From contig NZ_JAMOHM010000009.1 in the NCBI RefSeq assembly GCF_024448335.1, forward strand, positions 1-64,000: a stretch of 64,000 nucleotides of DNA, in the 5' to 3' direction. Made by a program: the position numbers and the translations under genes. The notes under the pieces were generated by a model, which worked only from the letters and a program-made list of their open reading frames with translations, was not told the DNA's origin and made no database searches. Shown here piece after piece: positions 51,549 to 59,260 of this stretch. Origin of the DNA: Stutzerimonas frequens (lineage in GTDB: Bacteria > Pseudomonadota > Gammaproteobacteria > Pseudomonadales > Pseudomonadaceae). Each line of letters opens with the position of its first letter. Position 1 is the first letter of the stretch.

Positions 51549-52415
51549 TCAGAAGCGGGCGAATTGCAGATAGCTCTCGGTGATCCTTTCACCCCAGAGA
51601 AGCGCGATCCACCCAGCGATCGCCAGATAAGGGCCAAAGGGAATGGGCGTGCCGCTTTCTGCACGCTGAACCTTCAAAAGAATGGAACCTAGCACCGCTC
51701 CGACCACTGACGACAACAGGATGGTAAGCGGCAACACCTGCCAGCCACCCCAGGCCCCAAGCATCGCCAACAGCTTGAAGTCGCCGTAGCCCATGCCCTC
51801 TTTGCCGGTGGCGAGCTTGAAAAGCCAGTACACCGACCAAAGACTCAGATAGCCCGCCACCGCCCCCCACACAGCGCTTTCCAGGGAGGTGAACAAGCCG
51901 AAGTGGTTAACGATCAACCCCAGCCACAACAAGGGTAGTACGAGCGAGTCAGGCAACAACTGATGATCGACATCAATCATGCTCATCGCCAGCAGGCCCC
52001 AGGTCAGCAGCAGCATCATGGCGGCCTGCCAGGAAAAGCCGAAATGCCACGCCACATACCCGGAGAGCACACCGCATGCCAGCTCCACCAACGGGTAACG
52101 ACAACTGATCGGCGCCTGGCAGGAGGAACACTTGCCACGCAACAACAGCCAACTGATCAGCGGAACGTTTTCCCATGCGCGGATTCGATGAGCGCAATGC
52201 GGACAGCGCGAATTCGGTAGCAACAGGTTGAATCGTTCGCCGACCGGTTCGCATGGCAGCTCAAGAAATTCTCTCGCCTGCACCCGCCATTCGCGCTGCA
52301 TCATCACCGGCAACCGGTAGATGAGGACGTTAAGGAAACTGCCAACCAGCAGGCCGAGCACAGCTGCAGACAAAACAAAGGCCAGCACATGGCTGGCCAT
52401 CAGTTCGTAGATCAT
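51549..52415 (-). CDS. pilD: Prepilin peptidase / N-methyltransferase PilD
   Basis: A 288-residue inner-membrane aspartyl protease that cleaves prepilins after glycine and methylates the new N-terminal Phe. It has CPHC and CSSC zinc cysteines in the first cytoplasmic loop, and the two active-site aspartates in DVDHQLLPDS and GMGYGDFK. Both domainless pilins in this window have the cleavage site it needs. It lies three bases after pilC. Confidence 0.96.
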   Translation of the reverse strand: MIYELMASHVLAFVLSAAVLGLLVGSFLNVLIYRLPVMMQREWRVQAREFLELPCEPVGERFNLLLPNSRCPHCAHRIRAWENVPLISWLLLRGKCSSCQAPISCRYPLVELACGVLSGYVAWHFGFSWQAAMMLLLTWGLLAMSMIDVDHQLLPDSLVLPLLWLGLIVNHFGLFTSLESAVWGAVAGYLSLWSVYWLFKLATGKEGMGYGDFKLLAMLGAWGGWQVLPLTILLSSVVGAVLGSILLKVQRAESGTPIPFGPYLAIAGWIALLWGERITESYLQFARF

Positions 52416-52418
52416 TAC

Positions 52419-53639
52419 TTATCCGACCACACTACCCAACTGGAAGATCGGCAGATACATCGCGATGATCAAGCCACCGACCAGAACCCCGAGCACGGCC
52501 ATGATCAGCGGTTCCATCAGGGTCGTCAGGTTATCCACCATGTTATCGACCTCCGCCTCATAGAAACTGGCCAGTTTGTCGAGCATCTCGTCCAACGCAC
52601 CGGACTCCTCGCCGATAGCGGTCATTTGAATAGCCATGGTGGGAAAAATGCCGGTCGTGCGCATGGAGAAATTGAGCTGCACACCAGACGATACGTCCGT
52701 ACGGATCTTCGCTACTGCATTGCGGAACACGACGTTGCCCGTGGCACCTGCCACTGAGTCCAACGCATCAACCAAGGGCACACCAGCCGCGAATGTCGTG
52801 GACAATGTGCGAGCATATCGCGCAACTACGGACTTGTAGAGAATGTCACCAACGATCGGCAGCTTGAGCAAAAGGCGATCAAGAGAGTCACGAAACTTTT
52901 CCGACCGTTTATATGCATGCTTGAACAAAAAGGCGGCAATGAACAACGCAAAGAATACGATGTACCACCACTCCTGCAGCCAACGTGACAACTGCACCAC
53001 CATCATGGTAAACGCTGGAAGTTCCGCGCCGAAGCCTTGGAATACGCTCTCGAACTGCGGAACTACCTTAATCAAGAGAATCGCCGATACGATGATTGCC
53101 ACCACGATAACCGCAATCGGATAGGTCATCGCCTTCTTGATCTTGGCCTTCAGCGCCTCGGTTTTTTCCTTGTAGGTTGCAACACGGTCCAGCAGCGTTT
53201 CGAGCGCACCGGACTGCTCTCCAGACTCGACCAAATTGCAATACAGGTCATCGAAATATTGCGGCTTCTTACGCAGCGAGCCAGCAAAGCTGTTGCCTGC
53301 CGCCACTTCTTGCTTGATCTCATCGACCAGCTTGCGCATGTTTGGGTTATCGAAGCCCTCGCCAATGATGTCGAACGATTGCAGCAGCGGCACGCCCGCC
53401 TTCATCATGGTGGCCATCTGCCGAGTGAACAGTGCGATGTCCATCGGCTTGATTTTCTTGCCCGCCCCGAACAAGGAAACGGCCTTCTTGCGAACCTTCA
53501 GCGGATTGATACCCTGCTTGCGGAGCTGCGCCTTGATCAGTGCCGGGCTCTGGCCTGCCAGCTCCCCCTTGACCTTGCCACCTTTTCTGTCGGTGCCTTC
53601 CCAGGTGAACACACTGGTTTTCAACGCTTTTTCCGCCAT
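52419..53639 (-). CDS. pilC: Type IV pilus inner-membrane platform protein PilC
   Basis: A 406-residue polytopic protein with two repeated cytoplasmic GspF domains (ALFTRQMATMMKAGVPLLQS and YARTLSTTFAAGVPLVDALD), each followed by membrane helices. It forms the platform for pilin addition driven by PilB. The last helix ends in LGVLVGGLIIAMYLPIF. It lies two bases after pilB. Confidence 0.97.
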   Translation of the reverse strand: MAEKALKTSVFTWEGTDRKGGKVKGELAGQSPALIKAQLRKQGINPLKVRKKAVSLFGAGKKIKPMDIALFTRQMATMMKAGVPLLQSFDIIGEGFDNPNMRKLVDEIKQEVAAGNSFAGSLRKKPQYFDDLYCNLVESGEQSGALETLLDRVATYKEKTEALKAKIKKAMTYPIAVIVVAIIVSAILLIKVVPQFESVFQGFGAELPAFTMMVVQLSRWLQEWWYIVFFALFIAAFLFKHAYKRSEKFRDSLDRLLLKLPIVGDILYKSVVARYARTLSTTFAAGVPLVDALDSVAGATGNVVFRNAVAKIRTDVSSGVQLNFSMRTTGIFPTMAIQMTAIGEESGALDEMLDKLASFYEAEVDNMVDNLTTLMEPLIMAVLGVLVGGLIIAMYLPIFQLGSVVG

Positions 53640-53641
53640 GG

Positions 53642-55345
53642 TTAATCCTTGGTCACGCGGTTGACTTCTTCCAGGCTGGTGACGCCGTTCATGGCCTTGA
53701 CCAGACCCGAAGTGCGCAGGTCATTGAACCCATCTTTACGCGCCTGCAAGGCGATATCGATGGAATTGCCTTCTTCCATGATAAGCCGCTGCAGGGCCGG
53801 CGTGATTTTAACCACTTCATAAATACCGACACGCCCCTTGTAGCCTCCCTTGCAGCTATCGCACCCCACCGGCCCGTAAAGCTTGAAGGAACCGATTCGC
53901 GCTTCAGGAAATCCTTCGCTGAGCAGAACATCTCGCGGCACATCGACCTCTTGTTTGCAGCTGGGGCACAGCTTACGAGCCAGCCGCTGAGCAATGATCA
54001 GGTTGACTGATGTGGCAATGTTGAATGCCGGCACCCCCATGTTGCGCAAGCGCGTAAGCGTTTCCGCAGCACTATTGGTATGCAGAGTCGACATCACCAT
54101 GTGCCCGGTCTGCGCTGCCTTGATGGCAATCTCGGCGGTTTCGAGATCTCGAATCTCACCCACCATGATGATGTCCGGATCCTGGCGCAGGAACGCTCGA
54201 AGCGCCTGCGCAAAGTCCATGCCCTGCTTCGGATTTACGTTGACCTGATTGATACCTTCCAAATTGATCTCTACCGGATCCTCCGCAGTGGAGATATTCA
54301 CATCGACCGTATTGAGAATATTCAGGCCGGTATAAAGCGAGACAGTCTTGCCCGAGCCTGTCGGGCCGGTAACCAGAATCATCCCTTGCGGCTGCTTCAG
54401 CGCGCTTAGATAGAGCTCCTTCTGGTCATCCTCATACCCCAGCGCATCAATACCCATCTTGGCACTGGAAGAATCCAAGATTCGCATAACAATCTTCTCG
54501 CCCCACAGGGTGGGTAGCGTATTCACGCGAAAATCGATCGACTTGGTGCTCGAGACCTTCATCTTGATCCGCCCGTCCTGCGGCTTGCGCCGCTCGGCGA
54601 TATCCAGACTGGCCATTACTTTCAGACGCGCTGAGATACGGCTGACCAACTGGACCGGCGGGCGGGCAACCTCGTGCAACATGCCGTCCGTACGAAAGCG
54701 CACCCGATAGCTCTTTTCATATGGCTCGAAGTGCAAATCGGACGAACCACCCTTGATCGCATCGAGCAGCATCTTGTTAACAAACCGCACCACTGGCGCA
54801 TCATCGGCTTCGTTATGCGCCGCATCGTCCTCCTTGGCGTCACCGGCCACTTCGATATCCAAGCCATCCAACTCGGAATCGTTCAATCCTTCGAGGGACG
54901 AGGTCGCCGACTCGAAGAACTTTTCGATGGCCTCACCGAGCTTGTCGTCCTCAACCAGCACAGCCTCAACGGAAAGCCCCGTATTGAACTGAATATCACT
55001 GATCGCCTGATGATTGGTTGGATCGGACACCGCCACATAAAGCTTGTTGCCTCGTCGCTGCAACGGCAGAGCTCGGTGCTGGCGCACCAGCTTCTCGCTG
55101 ACCAGTTCCTTCGGCTGGGTTTCTTTGTCCAGCGCCCCCAGATCAAAGAACGGAACACCAAACTGCTCACCGGCGATATCGACAAGCACCCGACTTTTGA
55201 CCAGCTTGTTCTGCACCAACCAAGTCACCAAAGGCACTTGGTTACGCAAGGCTTGCTGCTGGGCCTGCTGTGCGATTTTTTCGTCGAGCTGGCCGGTAAG
55301 AACCAGCTGGCGGGCCAGACCGCCGAGGGGCGCATTTTCGTTCAT
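53642..55345 (-). CDS. pilB: Type IV pilus assembly ATPase PilB
   Basis: A 567-residue hexameric secretion ATPase powering pilus extension. It has an N-terminal MSHEN-type domain (residues 10-150), Walker A GPTGSGKTVSLYTGLN near residue 332, the Asp box and Walker B RAFLRQDPDIIMVGEIRD, and the C-terminal four-cysteine zinc site CPSCKQ/CDSCKG. It is transcribed away from the pilin genes. It looks like an ordinary Pseudomonas PilB, unlike the pilin module across the intergenic gap. Confidence 0.97.
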   Translation of the reverse strand: MNENAPLGGLARQLVLTGQLDEKIAQQAQQQALRNQVPLVTWLVQNKLVKSRVLVDIAGEQFGVPFFDLGALDKETQPKELVSEKLVRQHRALPLQRRGNKLYVAVSDPTNHQAISDIQFNTGLSVEAVLVEDDKLGEAIEKFFESATSSLEGLNDSELDGLDIEVAGDAKEDDAAHNEADDAPVVRFVNKMLLDAIKGGSSDLHFEPYEKSYRVRFRTDGMLHEVARPPVQLVSRISARLKVMASLDIAERRKPQDGRIKMKVSSTKSIDFRVNTLPTLWGEKIVMRILDSSSAKMGIDALGYEDDQKELYLSALKQPQGMILVTGPTGSGKTVSLYTGLNILNTVDVNISTAEDPVEINLEGINQVNVNPKQGMDFAQALRAFLRQDPDIIMVGEIRDLETAEIAIKAAQTGHMVMSTLHTNSAAETLTRLRNMGVPAFNIATSVNLIIAQRLARKLCPSCKQEVDVPRDVLLSEGFPEARIGSFKLYGPVGCDSCKGGYKGRVGIYEVVKITPALQRLIMEEGNSIDIALQARKDGFNDLRTSGLVKAMNGVTSLEEVNRVTKD

Positions 55346-55716
55346 CGGGTGAGTTCTGTCGTAGGCGGAAGGACCGCCGCCTTATAACGCAGTTTCCGCA
55401 CCAAGCCAAACCGGGACGAACGAGGTGGCATTTTTTGTCACATGAGGACGGAAAGGGCACTAGCCCCTCGGCGCAAACCAATCCACCCGAATGACCTGGG
55501 TTATATAAAAAGGGAAAACCTTTAAAGCACAGCCCAAAATCGCTCCACGCCACACAGCGTCAGGCCTCGACTACCAATGGAGCTTTCGAAAGGACCAATA
55601 ATAAGGTGAGCCATATCACAACCCACAGCACAGCGCAGGTCTACCCTCATCAGCTGGCACAAAAGGTGCTGCTACCTCACCAGGTCCAACGACCTCACCA
55701 ACAAAGGAGCTTTTCC
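55346..55716. other. Divergent pilB-pilin intergenic region
   Basis: About 370 bases. It contains a plausible RpoN-dependent promoter (55655-55670) for the pilin and an AT-rich stretch around 55500-55530 (ATATAAAAAGG). The open frame from 55606 in the same frame as the pilin lacks a ribosome binding site and would destroy the prepilin leader. No other gene is seen. Confidence 0.5.
55655..55670 (+). promoter_or_regulatory. Sigma54 (-24/-12) promoter for the short pilin
   Basis: TGGCAC at 55655-55660 and GTGCT at 55666-55670 give the required GG-N10-GC spacing (GG 55656-55657, GC 55668-55669). One base differs from the TTGC consensus at -12. Transcription would start near 55681, 36 bases before the ATG. 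RpoN with PilR controls pilA in Pseudomonas, so control may have been preserved although the pilin itself is of another type. No PilR site was defined. Confidence 0.6.
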
Positions 55717-55902
55717 ATGAAGTCCATCAAAAAGCAAAAAGGTTTCACGCTGATCGAACTCATGATCGTGGTAGCGATCATCGGTATTCTAGCCGCTATC
55801 GCCATCCCACAATTCAACGAATATCGTGCCAAATCGAACGATACTGTCGCCACAGCTGACGCTAAAAACTCGATCAGCGTACTGGCAGCTGCCCAGCTTT
55901 AA
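55717..55902 (+). CDS. Domainless short type IV pilin
   Basis: A 61-residue prepilin with a 9-residue leader cut between Gly9 and Phe10 ([12 protein letters not shown]). Mature protein: 52 residues, with the Glu5 needed for assembly and the long helix [20 protein letters not shown]. It ends at LAAAQL with a TAA stop and has no globular domain and no disulfide loop, unlike Pseudomonas pilins of about 130-160 residues. The length and layout match Geobacter-type short pilins (PilA-N). AAAGGAG precedes the ATG. Its mature aromatic residues are Phe1, Phe24 and Tyr27 only. The next gene probably supplies the missing globular part. Confidence 0.88.
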
Positions 55903-55917
55903 TTTGGAGCCTAAGAA

Positions 55918-56358
55918 ATGAAAAAAATTCTGACCTGCTTGGCCCTAGCATCCACTCTTTTTGCCGCAAATAGTTACGCTGCAGAGATCAAATCCGGGAC
56001 CCCAATTACTGCAGACGCTGCCGGGTGCGAACTCCTAGCCCAAGACGTAACCATCAATCTTTCCAGCAATGTTTTTGGCGCTTACTCATGCCAAAAAGCC
56101 AACAATGTAATCAAGGTAGCCACCTGCCATAAAGCAGGCAGCCGAAAGATAGAAACTATAAAATGCGCCGTCGTAGACAAAGACGAAGACGGAAATTCTG
56201 TATGGAACGACTCGAGCTGTAAAGACACCGATAGCACTTTCGAGTCTCAAAACTTTGGCAAGGCGGCATTCGCAACAACCGGCGGTGGCAGTGTCGCCGC
56301 AAAAAGCCTCGCAGCCTACTGCGATAGTGCAAGCCCTCTCGAAGCTGCGGTAAAGTAA
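55918..56358 (+). CDS. Secreted cysteine-rich protein, probable pilin partner
   Basis: A 146-residue protein with a signal peptide (cut near SYA|AEIK) and six cysteines in the mature part at 37, 58, 70, 83, 101 and 135, enough for three disulfides. The rest is Ala/Ser/Thr/Lys-rich beta-type sequence, much like the separated globular half of a pilin. It starts 16 bases after the short pilin stop with its own ribosome binding site (GGAG), so it is translated separately. In Geobacter the short pilin is followed by an analogous separate partner (PilA-C/Spc). I recognise no closer family. Role inferred: decorates or stabilises the short pilin. Confidence 0.75.
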   Translation: MKKILTCLALASTLFAANSYAAEIKSGTPITADAAGCELLAQDVTINLSSNVFGAYSCQKANNVIKVATCHKAGSRKIETIKCAVVDKDEDGNSVWNDSSCKDTDSTFESQNFGKAAFATTGGGSVAAKSLAAYCDSASPLEAAVK

Positions 56359-56392: not shown

Positions 56393-56656
56393 ATGGCTGC
56401 CTTTCGCTCTTCTTTAAGCGCACGACCGGAAAAGGGGGCTTACCCCTTTTCCCGTCAAATACATAAAACACATAGAACTTCTTATACACCGGGATTCACC
56501 TTAATAGAAACACTCATTGTCACAGGCATACTTTCCCTTCTCTTAAGCATCGCCATTCCAAAATACTATGACTTCAAAATCAGAGCCAATGATGCAACGG
56601 CGCTCGCGGATGCACGAAATGCGATAAACTTAATAGCATCCAGCAAAGGCAGATAG
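56393..56656 (+). CDS. Second domainless type IV pilin
   Basis: An 87-residue prepilin with an unusually long leader of 34 residues before the cut site PG|FTLIETLIV. The mature part is 53 residues, again with Glu5, one hydrophobic helix and no globular domain. Its C-terminal segment (RANDATALADARNAI) aligns with that of the first short pilin ([16 protein letters not shown]), so the two are related. AAGGAAC precedes the ATG at 56393 and no later in-frame start precedes the cut site. Local base composition is about 40% GC (97 of 240 bases in 56461-56700), far below the flanking genes. Confidence 0.8.
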   Translation: MAAFRSSLSARPEKGAYPFSRQIHKTHRTSYTPGFTLIETLIVTGILSLLLSIAIPKYYDFKIRANDATALADARNAINLIASSKGR

Positions 56657-56718: not shown

Positions 56719-57528
56719 ATGCAAATATTCTCTATCGCCCTAACGGGTCTCCGCCTCGCTTTTCGCTCCCACGTTATTTTGCTGGCAGCCTGTTGCTTGC
56801 TGATACTGGCCTTATCCGTGCTACTCTCCGCGCAATTCAGCGGCCGACAACCCTCCACAGTTGCAATGGATATTGGGCTATCGGTAATTCGCTTGCTGTT
56901 GCCATTAGCGCTCGCGCTGATCACTCAAGAGCTTCTTTCAAAAGAGTTTGAACGTCGCTATTTTCTCAACACCCTTTCTTACCCACACACACGGCACAAA
57001 ATTTTGTTAGGTCGCTTACTCGCAGCAGCCCTACTTCTCCTCGTACTTCTGCTGGTGCTTGCCGGGACGCTGGCATTGTTGACCTGGCTAATCGAAAAAA
57101 GCTACTCGCAAGGCACGCCGGTTTTGCTAGGCGCCCCCTTTATAATAACTATCGGCTTTATTGGCCTTGACCTGCTAGTACTAACGGCCGTCGCAGCGCT
57201 GCTTGCTGTAGTTGCAACCACGTCAAGTTTCGTTTTGATTGGCACCTTCGGTTTCACACTCGTAGCCCGCTCGTTCGGCACAATCTTAGAACTTCTGACC
57301 CGTAATTCCGCTGTAGTAAGCGATGCCGAAAACTATCGCTCCAGCCTCGGCCTCCTTAGCTATCTGTTGCCGGATTTGAGCGTACTTGATGTGCGCATGA
57401 TTGCGCTCTACGGTAGAATGGAATTCCTGCCAGCAGATTGGCCGTGGCTTGTGCTGGCGAACCTAACCTACACAGCTGGTTTTTTAGGTATCGCGGTTTG
57501 GGCCCTGCAACGCAAGCGTTTTTCATAA
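56719..57528 (+). CDS. ABC-2 type permease (PilI-like position)
   Basis: A 269-residue inner-membrane protein with six predicted helices and the ABC-2 family feature of a conserved charged loop before the third helix (QELLSKEFERRYFLNTLSYP, then RHKILLGRLLAA). It would be the membrane part of the exporter whose ATPase is at 58364-59260. It lies 62 bases after the second short pilin. In Myxococcus the pilA gene is followed by pilG, pilH and pilI, of which PilI is the permease and needed for pili. The substrate is unknown. The ribosome binding site is weak. Confidence 0.8.
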   Translation: MQIFSIALTGLRLAFRSHVILLAACCLLILALSVLLSAQFSGRQPSTVAMDIGLSVIRLLLPLALALITQELLSKEFERRYFLNTLSYPHTRHKILLGRLLAAALLLLVLLLVLAGTLALLTWLIEKSYSQGTPVLLGAPFIITIGFIGLDLLVLTAVAALLAVVATTSSFVLIGTFGFTLVARSFGTILELLTRNSAVVSDAENYRSSLGLLSYLLPDLSVLDVRMIALYGRMEFLPADWPWLVLANLTYTAGFLGIAVWALQRKRFS

Positions 57529-57530
57529 TT

Positions 57531-58367
57531 ATGTGCACGCGTCTCGCTCTACCGTTCGCCCTGCTGTGTTTTGTTCTTTTCGCTGCTATCGTCGCATGGC
57601 GCGCCCAGCAGCCGGTGCGGTTGATGTCACATGCCGTCGCCGATCGCGTAGTAATTCCCGCACCGCTGCTGGTCGCGCTGAGCGGCGGCGATCGCTACCT
57701 CGCCGCCGACTTGGAAACGATGCGTCTATCCGCCACAGGCATGGATGATCGTGGCGTGGACACCGATTACTTGGTTCGCGCCCAGCGCGAGGTGGCGCGT
57801 CTCAACCCCTGCCATGAAGACAATTACTATCTGGCCAACGGCCTCCTCACTTGGGGCGGCGCTGTGCAGCAGGGTAATGCGGTGCTGCGCGCGGCCGTCA
57901 AATGCCGATTCTGGGATGAATTCCCGCCGTTCTTTTATGGCATCAATCTCTCTTTTTTCCAGCACGACAATGAAGAGGCCGCGCGAGTGCTGGAGATTGG
58001 CGCCCAACGCTCGACACAGAACGCCGCCGCTATGCGGAAACTGGCGGTAATGCTGCGCGCCGAACAATTTGCCGACGAACGCTTGGCTTTGAATTACCTT
58101 GTCCAGCAGCGCGACAGCGCTACCGATCCGAAATTGCGCGACATGCTGGACAAGCGCGTCATCCGTTTGCAGGGTTTGATCTATCTACGCGAGGCGCAAC
58201 GCCGATATGAGGCCGAGCAAGGCCCTCTGACCGACCTGCAGCAGTTGATCAGCCAGGGCATTATCACCGATCTGCCCATCGACCCTTTGCGACTCGGCTA
58301 CGAGGTGCGCAATGGTCGCATCGAGTTGAAGAAACTGAAGATTGCCGGACTGGAGGAACAGCCTTGA
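57531..58367 (+). CDS. Membrane-anchored helical-repeat protein in the pilin ABC unit
   Basis: A 278-residue protein with a single N-terminal membrane helix (residues 5-24, LALPFALLCFVLFAAIVAWR), the rest being periplasmic or cytoplasmic alpha-helical with TPR-like repeats (EDNYYLANGLLTWGGAVQQG, AAAMRKLAVMLRAEQFADER). It starts two bases after the permease stop and overlaps the ATPase start, so the three are one unit. By position it corresponds to PilG of Myxococcus. The GC content returns to high values here (42 of 60 bases in 57661-57720). I do not recognise a named family. Confidence 0.7.
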   Translation: MCTRLALPFALLCFVLFAAIVAWRAQQPVRLMSHAVADRVVIPAPLLVALSGGDRYLAADLETMRLSATGMDDRGVDTDYLVRAQREVARLNPCHEDNYYLANGLLTWGGAVQQGNAVLRAAVKCRFWDEFPPFFYGINLSFFQHDNEEAARVLEIGAQRSTQNAAAMRKLAVMLRAEQFADERLALNYLVQQRDSATDPKLRDMLDKRVIRLQGLIYLREAQRRYEAEQGPLTDLQQLISQGIITDLPIDPLRLGYEVRNGRIELKKLKIAGLEEQP

Positions 58368-59260
58368 GCGCTGCCGTTGAGTTTAAGGGTGTCAGCCATA
58401 CCTTCAGGACGAAAGGCAAACAGGTACAGGCCGTTCGCGACGTGAGCTTTAGCTTGTGCGAAGGCGAAGTGTTCGGTTTTGTGGGCCCCAATGGTGCAGG
58501 CAAATCCACCACGATCAAGATCATGCTGGACATCATCAACGACTATCAGGGCCAGGTGAGGCTGTACGGGATCGACGCTCATCGTGCTGAAGCACGTCAG
58601 GGCTTGGCGTACGTACCCGAAGCACCAGCCCTGTACGATCAGTTCACCCCATTGGAAATTCTGCGCATGGGCTTGTCCATGTACGGCATCAAGCGCAGTG
58701 ACGCCGATGCCTGGTGCATCCAATGGCTCGAGCGATTCTCCATTGCAGAGTACGCGAAGCGACGGATTCGCCAGCTCTCCAAAGGCAACGTACAGCGGAC
58801 TGCCCTGGCCCACGCGATGGCTGTGGAGCCGCGACTGTTGATTCTCGACGAGCCACTGTCGGGATTGGATCCCGTGGGTCGCAAAGATGTGGTCGACATT
58901 CTCAACGAGTACAAAAAACAGGGCGGCGCGATTTTCTTTACGTCGCATGTACTGCACGACGTCGAGCGAATCGCTGATCGCTTCGGTTTCATAAATAAAG
59001 GCCAGTTACTGACGGTCCGCTCTCCTCGAGAGCTTGCTGCGGAGCGGGCTGGTCATTTCATCATCCGGTATCAAGCTGACCTCCCGCTCACTGCAGGCTG
59101 TACCGTTTTGCGCCCCGGGGAGTACGAATGCGAGATGGAGCAGTCCAGGCTGCCTGAATTTATCGCTCAGCTGAATAACACCAGCGGGCATTTGCTCGCC
59201 CTTCAGCCGGCCGTCTCCTTGGAAACGGTATTCTTCCGAATTCTCGAAGACGCTAACTAA
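58364..59260 (+). CDS. ABC transporter ATPase (PilH-like position)
   Basis: A 298-residue ABC ATPase with Walker A GPNGAGKSTTIK (about residues 44-55), Q-loop region, signature LSKGNVQRTALAHAM, Walker B RLLILDEPLSGLDP and the H-loop TSHVLHD. A C-terminal extension of about 70 residues is of the kind found in ABC-2 exporters. The start is TTG at 58364 overlapping the previous stop (TTGA), with GGAGG seven bases upstream. It pairs with the permease at 56719-57528. A bidirectional terminator ends the unit. Confidence 0.85.
   Translation: MSAAVEFKGVSHTFRTKGKQVQAVRDVSFSLCEGEVFGFVGPNGAGKSTTIKIMLDIINDYQGQVRLYGIDAHRAEARQGLAYVPEAPALYDQFTPLEILRMGLSMYGIKRSDADAWCIQWLERFSIAEYAKRRIRQLSKGNVQRTALAHAMAVEPRLLILDEPLSGLDPVGRKDVVDILNEYKKQGGAIFFTSHVLHDVERIADRFGFINKGQLLTVRSPRELAAERAGHFIIRYQADLPLTAGCTVLRPGEYECEMEQSRLPEFIAQLNNTSGHLLALQPAVSLETVFFRILEDAN

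Follow-up and report, generated by a model that had tools for sequence, protein, structure and literature searches.

A 64,000-nucleotide stretch of Stutzerimonas frequens DNA (assembly GCF_024448335.1, contig NZ_JAMOHM010000009.1, positions 1 to 64,000; here called the window) carries, beside and divergent from the pilus gene pilB, a 61-residue type IV prepilin with no globular domain, followed by a gene for a cysteine-rich secreted protein of 146 residues (the partner). Very probably this is the locus for the major pilin of a type IVa pilus, with two separate chains forming the pilin. It is best read as a pilin of the Geobacter two-chain kind, in which the cysteine-rich partner belongs to a new family, and as an exchangeable alternative to the one-piece pilin PilA.

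The short pilin and its partner

The features that bear directly on this reading are:

55717..55902, plus strand: short type IV prepilin (PilA-N-like), 61 amino acids, 52 in the mature chain; N_methyl (PF07963) 44.7 bits against a cut-off of 21.2; proposed helical chain of the major pilin
55918..56358, plus strand: secreted partner, 146 amino acids, six mature cysteines; proposed globular, PilA-C-like chain of the pilin
55655..55669, plus strand: sigma-54-like -24/-12 site TGGCACAAAAGGTGC, found with the pattern GGCA[CT]-N7-GC, which follows the sigma-54 consensus
53642..55345, minus strand: pilB, extension ATPase (T2SSE and MshEN domains); tracks pilin type within Stutzerimonas but not outside the genus
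52419..53639, minus strand: pilC, platform protein (T2SSF); tracks pilin type within Stutzerimonas
51549..52415, minus strand: pilD, prepilin peptidase (Peptidase_A24); a flank gene, independent of pilin type

A first-pass annotation made from the letters alone had proposed a split pilin here, and its coordinates and its counts of residues and cysteines were confirmed. The prepilin is preceded by a ribosome-binding-site-like AAAGGAG (55703-55709) and ends in TAA at 55900-55902. The partner open reading frame (ORF) begins 15 nt further on and, as that annotation had stated, has its own ribosome-binding-site-like sequence (GGAG, 55906-55909) and a Sec-type signal peptide, of about 21 residues as judged by eye. 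Its mature cysteines are at 37, 58, 70, 84, 101 and 135, with one more inside the signal peptide. Divergence of the pilin from pilB also held, pilB, pilC and pilD all being on the minus strand. The annotation overlooked a second short prepilin and a set of three genes, for an ABC permease, a 278-residue protein and an ABC ATPase, which lie downstream. The 61-residue protein has the marks of a class III prepilin, namely a short basic leader, a G|F cleavage site, E5 and a hydrophobic alpha1.

A profile search of genome contigs with an alignment of the permease gave 42 loci, named individually, from Pseudomonas, Stutzerimonas, Thauera, Pseudothauera, Lampropedia, Saccharospirillum, Thiohalophilus, Mariprofundus and two unclassified Gammaproteobacteria, with no locus from Myxococcota among them; this set overlaps with the set of Stutzerimonas genomes described below (e.g. 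locus L042 and genome G002). Upstream of the permease every one of the 42 has a prepilin whose mature chain is exactly 52 residues long, and a secreted ORF of 135-162 amino acids starts 11-35 nt past the stop codon of that prepilin (for L066 the ORF was counted from a later start, and the divergent ORF of L082 was left out of alignments and distance work). The conserved adjacency that the first-pass annotation had proposed to look for is thus present throughout. The 19 short-pilin loci of the genus and the window likewise all have 52 mature residues, and F1 and E5 are invariant in 40/40 aligned short pilins. Because the mature length is exactly 52 in all these loci, a sequencing frameshift, which the first-pass annotation had raised as a danger to its proposal, is excluded; decay of the short pilin was rejected on the same ground. 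The two ORFs of the window are in frame with each other, which might be taken as a sign of recent gene fission; this idea was rejected, since 17/42 loci have in-frame spacing where 14 would by chance, and the spacing in the window is therefore a coincidence. A pilB at at least 60% identity lies within the stretch examined in 33/42 loci. The Thauera, Pseudothauera, Lampropedia and Mariprofundus loci and the short contig L072 have either no pilB there or a distant one.

One site for two pilin forms

All 56 Stutzerimonas genomes examined, that of the window included, have pilB. At its 5' side, with nothing between, the pilin is of the short form in 19 genomes and full-length, at 126-170 mature residues, in the other 37. 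Genome G067, 73% complete with 4% contamination, has a full-length locus on L126 and in addition a twentieth short-pilin contig, L138; a mixed assembly is likely here. Outside the pilin, pilD adjoins pilC in 56/56 genomes, and cysNC is found on the far side within the stretch in 14/19 split and 34/37 full-length loci. The one-piece PilA or PilAI of Pseudomonas and Stutzerimonas thus shares with the short pilin the same site, divergence from pilB and the same sigma-54-like element, and in Stutzerimonas differs in being a single chain. The search for the element covered the 260 bases upstream of the point where the mature pilin begins; matches lie mostly at -80 to -115, and the element was present in 16/18 split and 37/37 full-length congeners and in 40/42 named loci. 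In the P. stutzeri model, pilAI lies upstream of and divergent from pilB and is essential for pili, and S. balearica carries a gene of low identity to pilAI at that place (PMC10234333).

A separate full-length major pilA elsewhere was another danger that the first-pass annotation had raised. The window's own genome has 16 N_methyl matches (E <= 0.001), two of which are the short pilins, and no full-length type IVa PilA was found among them. By eye, the other 14 comprise four type II secretion pseudopilins (gspGHIJ-like) on contig C8, five genes on C20 that belong to an MSHA-like locus and, next to a pilY1-like gene on C9, five minor pilins resembling fimT, fimU, pilV, pilW and pilE. Close to the MSHA-like pilins lies a motor of their own, an ATPase on C20, and by eye this locus (L139) contains two MshA-like pilins in tandem. 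Two PilT-family genes (C7), pilQ and pilM (both C1) are also present.

The two forms of the locus were compared gene by gene, leaving the divergent L136 and L137 (PilB 63 and 59% identical to the window's) out of the split set and dropping rows with short or missing frames, so that 12-17 split and 31-37 full rows remained per gene. PilB identity between forms averages 79.3% (highest pair 82.2), compared with 91.5% within the split form (lowest 82.8) and 89.4% within the full form (lowest 83.6). For PilC the corresponding values are 82.4% (highest 85.9), 92.7% (lowest 83.0) and 91.6% (lowest 84.9). From these ranges, therefore, PilB separates the forms narrowly and PilC nearly does so. For CoaE, PilD, CysNC and CysD the mean identity is similar between and within forms, with individual cross-form pairs as high as 97.6-100%. 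At the DNA level, identity steps at pilC-pilB in 4/4 split/full pairs selected for similar flanks. In the pair L087/L112 it is 98.3% for coaE, 94.1% for pilD, 70.8% for pilC, 71.9% for pilB, 93.8% for cysNC and 99.2% for cysD; the same genes in L088/L128 give 95.5, 95.7, 76.6, 76.5, 94.5 and 93.8%. Because pilB and pilC change together with the type of pilin and the flanking genes do not, pilC-pilB-pilin is, on sequence comparison, a cassette exchanged with the one-piece PilA version within the genus.

This linkage of PilB to pilin type holds within Stutzerimonas and does not define a universal motor type. Of the loci in 50 sampled genomes of a Pseudomonas-type genus, the 30 retained and examined comprise 3 with a short pilin (52 residues), 26 with a full-length one (123-181) and 1 with no recognised pilin. 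The idea of a general split-type PilB was rejected: a PilB tree of 107 rows, built by a quick method without L157 (where no pilin was found), requires 3 changes of pilin label, and in Pseudomonas the forms intermix.

The partner and the Geobacter pilin

Geobacter PilA-N and PilA-C (GSU1496/GSU1497; PDB 6VK9, 7TGG, 9EGP) have the same layout, with a domainless pilin and, after it, a separate gene for a secreted, beta-rich protein, and the three best of 22 PDB sequence matches to the short pilin are geopilin domain 1 proteins. The Geobacter chains have 61 and 104 amino acids (PMC11046646), and PilA-C sequences split into two very different clades (PMC6201914). The present system differs in having 52 mature residues where Geobacter PilA-N has 61, in adjoining a Pseudomonas-type pilBCD, in the 3 or 4 aromatic residues of its short pilin, and in the conserved cysteines of its partner, of which 9egp_B, over the 90 residues printed, has none beyond its signal peptide. 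Aromatic residues make up 3/52 (5.8%) of the short pilin in the window and 3 or 4 of 52 in 42/42 named loci, below the approximately 9% taken as the threshold for aromatic-rich conductive pilins (e-pili). A conductive pilus was therefore rejected, and the low aromatic content favours a reason for the split that is structural and not electrical.

The partner is highly diverse, mature partners being 21-58% identical to that of the window, while the helix is nearly constant. Cysteine columns 37, 58, 70 and 135 are nevertheless invariant in the 42 members, and column 101 is kept in at least 90%. Relatives of the 146-residue protein (E <= 0.001) were detected in 12/58 relatives, own genome included and all within the genus; the locus itself is in more genomes than this, the shortfall being due to the partner's fast divergence. 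Among the Pfam and NCBIfam models, none was matched by more than one of the 42 members. The outer half of the pilin and the partner have a shared history (r 0.64; other genes 0.06-0.26).

An AlphaFold2 model of the read-through pair has a pilin-like fold over both chains, and the first seven rows of its structure search are type IV pilins or a pseudopilin. This model and the shared history support the first-pass suggestion that the missing globular domain would be supplied in trans. For the partner alone the best structural match was Geobacter PilA-C (the best VIA row, with a modest Z). Foldseek gave no match at E <= 0.001 for either model, its top rows being unrelated folds. In sequence, the partner profile with its signal peptide found 9egp_B as the best PDB match (E 0.037), and the mature profile had no PDB match up to E 10; hhalign of partner against PilA-C gave E 3.5e-5 with the signal peptide and 0.081 without. 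Sequence proof that the partner is PilA-C was therefore rejected, the match being lost once the signal peptide is removed. From the predicted structures, common descent of the two is plausible.

A second partner-like secreted ORF follows the first in L042, L061 and L071, and partners may thus be duplicated in some loci. A pattern count gave 2/42, which is a lower bound: the pattern missed the L042 case and recognised no partner in L046, L058, L074 and L082. Within the genus, L087, L089 and L091 form a subclass with only two mature cysteines in the partner, a different pilin tail, ending GGIANSN, and a distant permease (31-34% identity).

The first-pass annotation knew of no earlier description of this layout beside gammaproteobacterial pilBCD. 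That claim calls for caution. Among the matches listed in a search of open-licence literature (subscription journals, preprints and supplements lay outside it) there was no split pilin with partner beside a Pseudomonadaceae pilBCD, nor its exchange with PilA; but Pseudomonas had already been listed in 2016 among genera with truncated pilins, in an extract that gives neither locus nor partner (PMC5174107).

Neighbouring genes, alternatives and a model

The minus strand reads coaE, pilD, pilC, pilB; the divergent plus strand carries the two short prepilins, the partner and the ABC set, and cysNC and cysD follow the ATPase gene on the minus strand (the names coaE, cysNC and cysD were assigned by eye). 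The remaining features are:

56393..56656, plus strand: second short prepilin, putatively accessory, 53 mature residues and a long leader of 34 residues; N_methyl 24 bits, cut-off 21.2; a second short prepilin is found in 8/42 named loci
56719..57528, plus strand: ABC-2 type permease, 269 amino acids, PilI-like by place and kind; PF12730 28.1 bits, cut-off 27
57531..58367, plus strand: 278-residue protein, PilG-like by place; a relative follows the permease in 42/42 named loci
58364..59260, plus strand: ABC transporter ATPase, 298 amino acids, PilH-like by place and kind; PF00005 101.7 bits

The three genes of the ABC set lie beside the short pilin in 18/19 split-pilin congeners; in G009 the pilin pair is present and the permease was not found. 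Permease matches occur in 19/56 genus genomes, own included (3/19 distant, at 31-33% identity), in 41/298 family genomes (36 at E <1e-30; 19 of the 41 are the genus's own) and in 11/369 class genomes (7 at E <1e-30). An ATPase relative was seen in 40/42 named loci, but not in L061 or L070. The 278-residue protein, scanned as a 309-residue ORF starting at 57438, had no Pfam or NCBIfam match. By eye its C-terminus, LPIDPLRLGY, looks like the tail of a GspG-type pseudopilin (LPxDPxGxxY).

An ABC permease, an ATPase and a third protein beside a major pilin make a PilGHI-type arrangement, in a gene order different from that of Myxococcus, and the set may by analogy be called PilGHI-like in kind, the likeness being one of gene place and protein kind only. 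ABC-type proteins are encoded in the pilus cluster of Myxococcus xanthus (PMC6060248), where PilG, PilH and PilI are said to be indispensable for moving pilin through the inner membrane (PMC3724824). The Geobacter ABC ATPase GSU1501 (xapD), near pilA by locus number, has been read as a sugar exporter (PMC5585712); that it is a PilH homologue is a lead only. 

GSU1497 has been viewed, under the name Spc, as a chaperone of the Geobacter short pilin, and the partner could likewise be a periplasmic chaperone that leaves before assembly, the filament then being a bare bundle of helices. We consider this unlikely. Adjacency and shared history would fit a dedicated chaperone as well, knockout of GSU1497 may leave no PilA (PMC5174107), and a review describes 3.2 nm pili formed in P. 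aeruginosa from Geobacter PilA alone and from truncated PilA (PMC12806980). Electron cryomicroscopy, however, found PilA-N and PilA-C in equal parts in Geobacter type IV pili, and 3 nm filaments have been identified as DNA (PMC12954529; PMC11046646). The pilin-like pair model and the diversity of the partner over a nearly constant helix also argue against a chaperone.

It is very improbable that the short pilin serves as a minor pilin or in competence, with an unrecognised protein forming the main filament: the window does hold two short prepilins, but this one lies beside pilB, where 37/56 genus genomes carry full-length PilA, and the N_methyl inventory of its own genome offers no other type IVa candidate. 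Still harder to credit is decay of the locus, with the short pilin left over as a remnant and the surface pili supplied by the MSHA-like genes. An MSHA-like locus is present, but the constant 52 residues, the sigma-54-like site kept in nearly all named loci, and the retention of two PilT-family genes, pilQ, pilM and minor pilins speak against decay.

In the two-chain major pilin that we favour, the 61-residue prepilin would enter the inner membrane and, as in its family, be cut by PilD to the 52-residue helix. The 146-residue protein, to judge from its signal peptide and six cysteines, would be exported by Sec, lose the signal peptide and fold in the periplasm with disulfides. Structure prediction and the shared history suggest that it packs on the outer half of the helix (residues ~25-52), the two chains making one pilin subunit. 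PilB and PilC would then polymerise this subunit through PilQ and PilT-type motors retract it, the genes for all of these being present. By analogy with Myxococcus PilGHI, the ABC permease, 278-residue protein and ATPase probably aid pilin handling at the inner membrane.

More broadly, the locus may belong to a class of two-chain type IV pilins with a near-invariant helix and a fast-diverging, disulfide-stapled coat supplied in trans, occurring together with its own PilGHI-like transporter across beta- and gammaproteobacteria and in Mariprofundus, and swapped in Stutzerimonas with a one-piece pilin by cassette recombination that includes the extension motor and platform; we judge the chances for and against this wider proposal to be about equal. 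If it is true, splitting would let the coat change and leave the helix gripped by the machine untouched.

In the literature found, discussion of short pilins centres on Geobacter and electron transfer. In the present case the two-chain layout replaces PilA in relatives of the P. stutzeri natural transformation model, with the short form in about a third of the genus. Its chief interest lies in being exchangeable with PilA inside a genus that allows the two to be compared. As the genomes have one form or the other at this site, the split pilin and the whole one, each with its motor, can be set side by side in nearly the same cell for piliation, twitching, DNA uptake and phage sensitivity. The split-pilin cassette thus offers a new system in which to study how pili are built and exchanged by bacteria.
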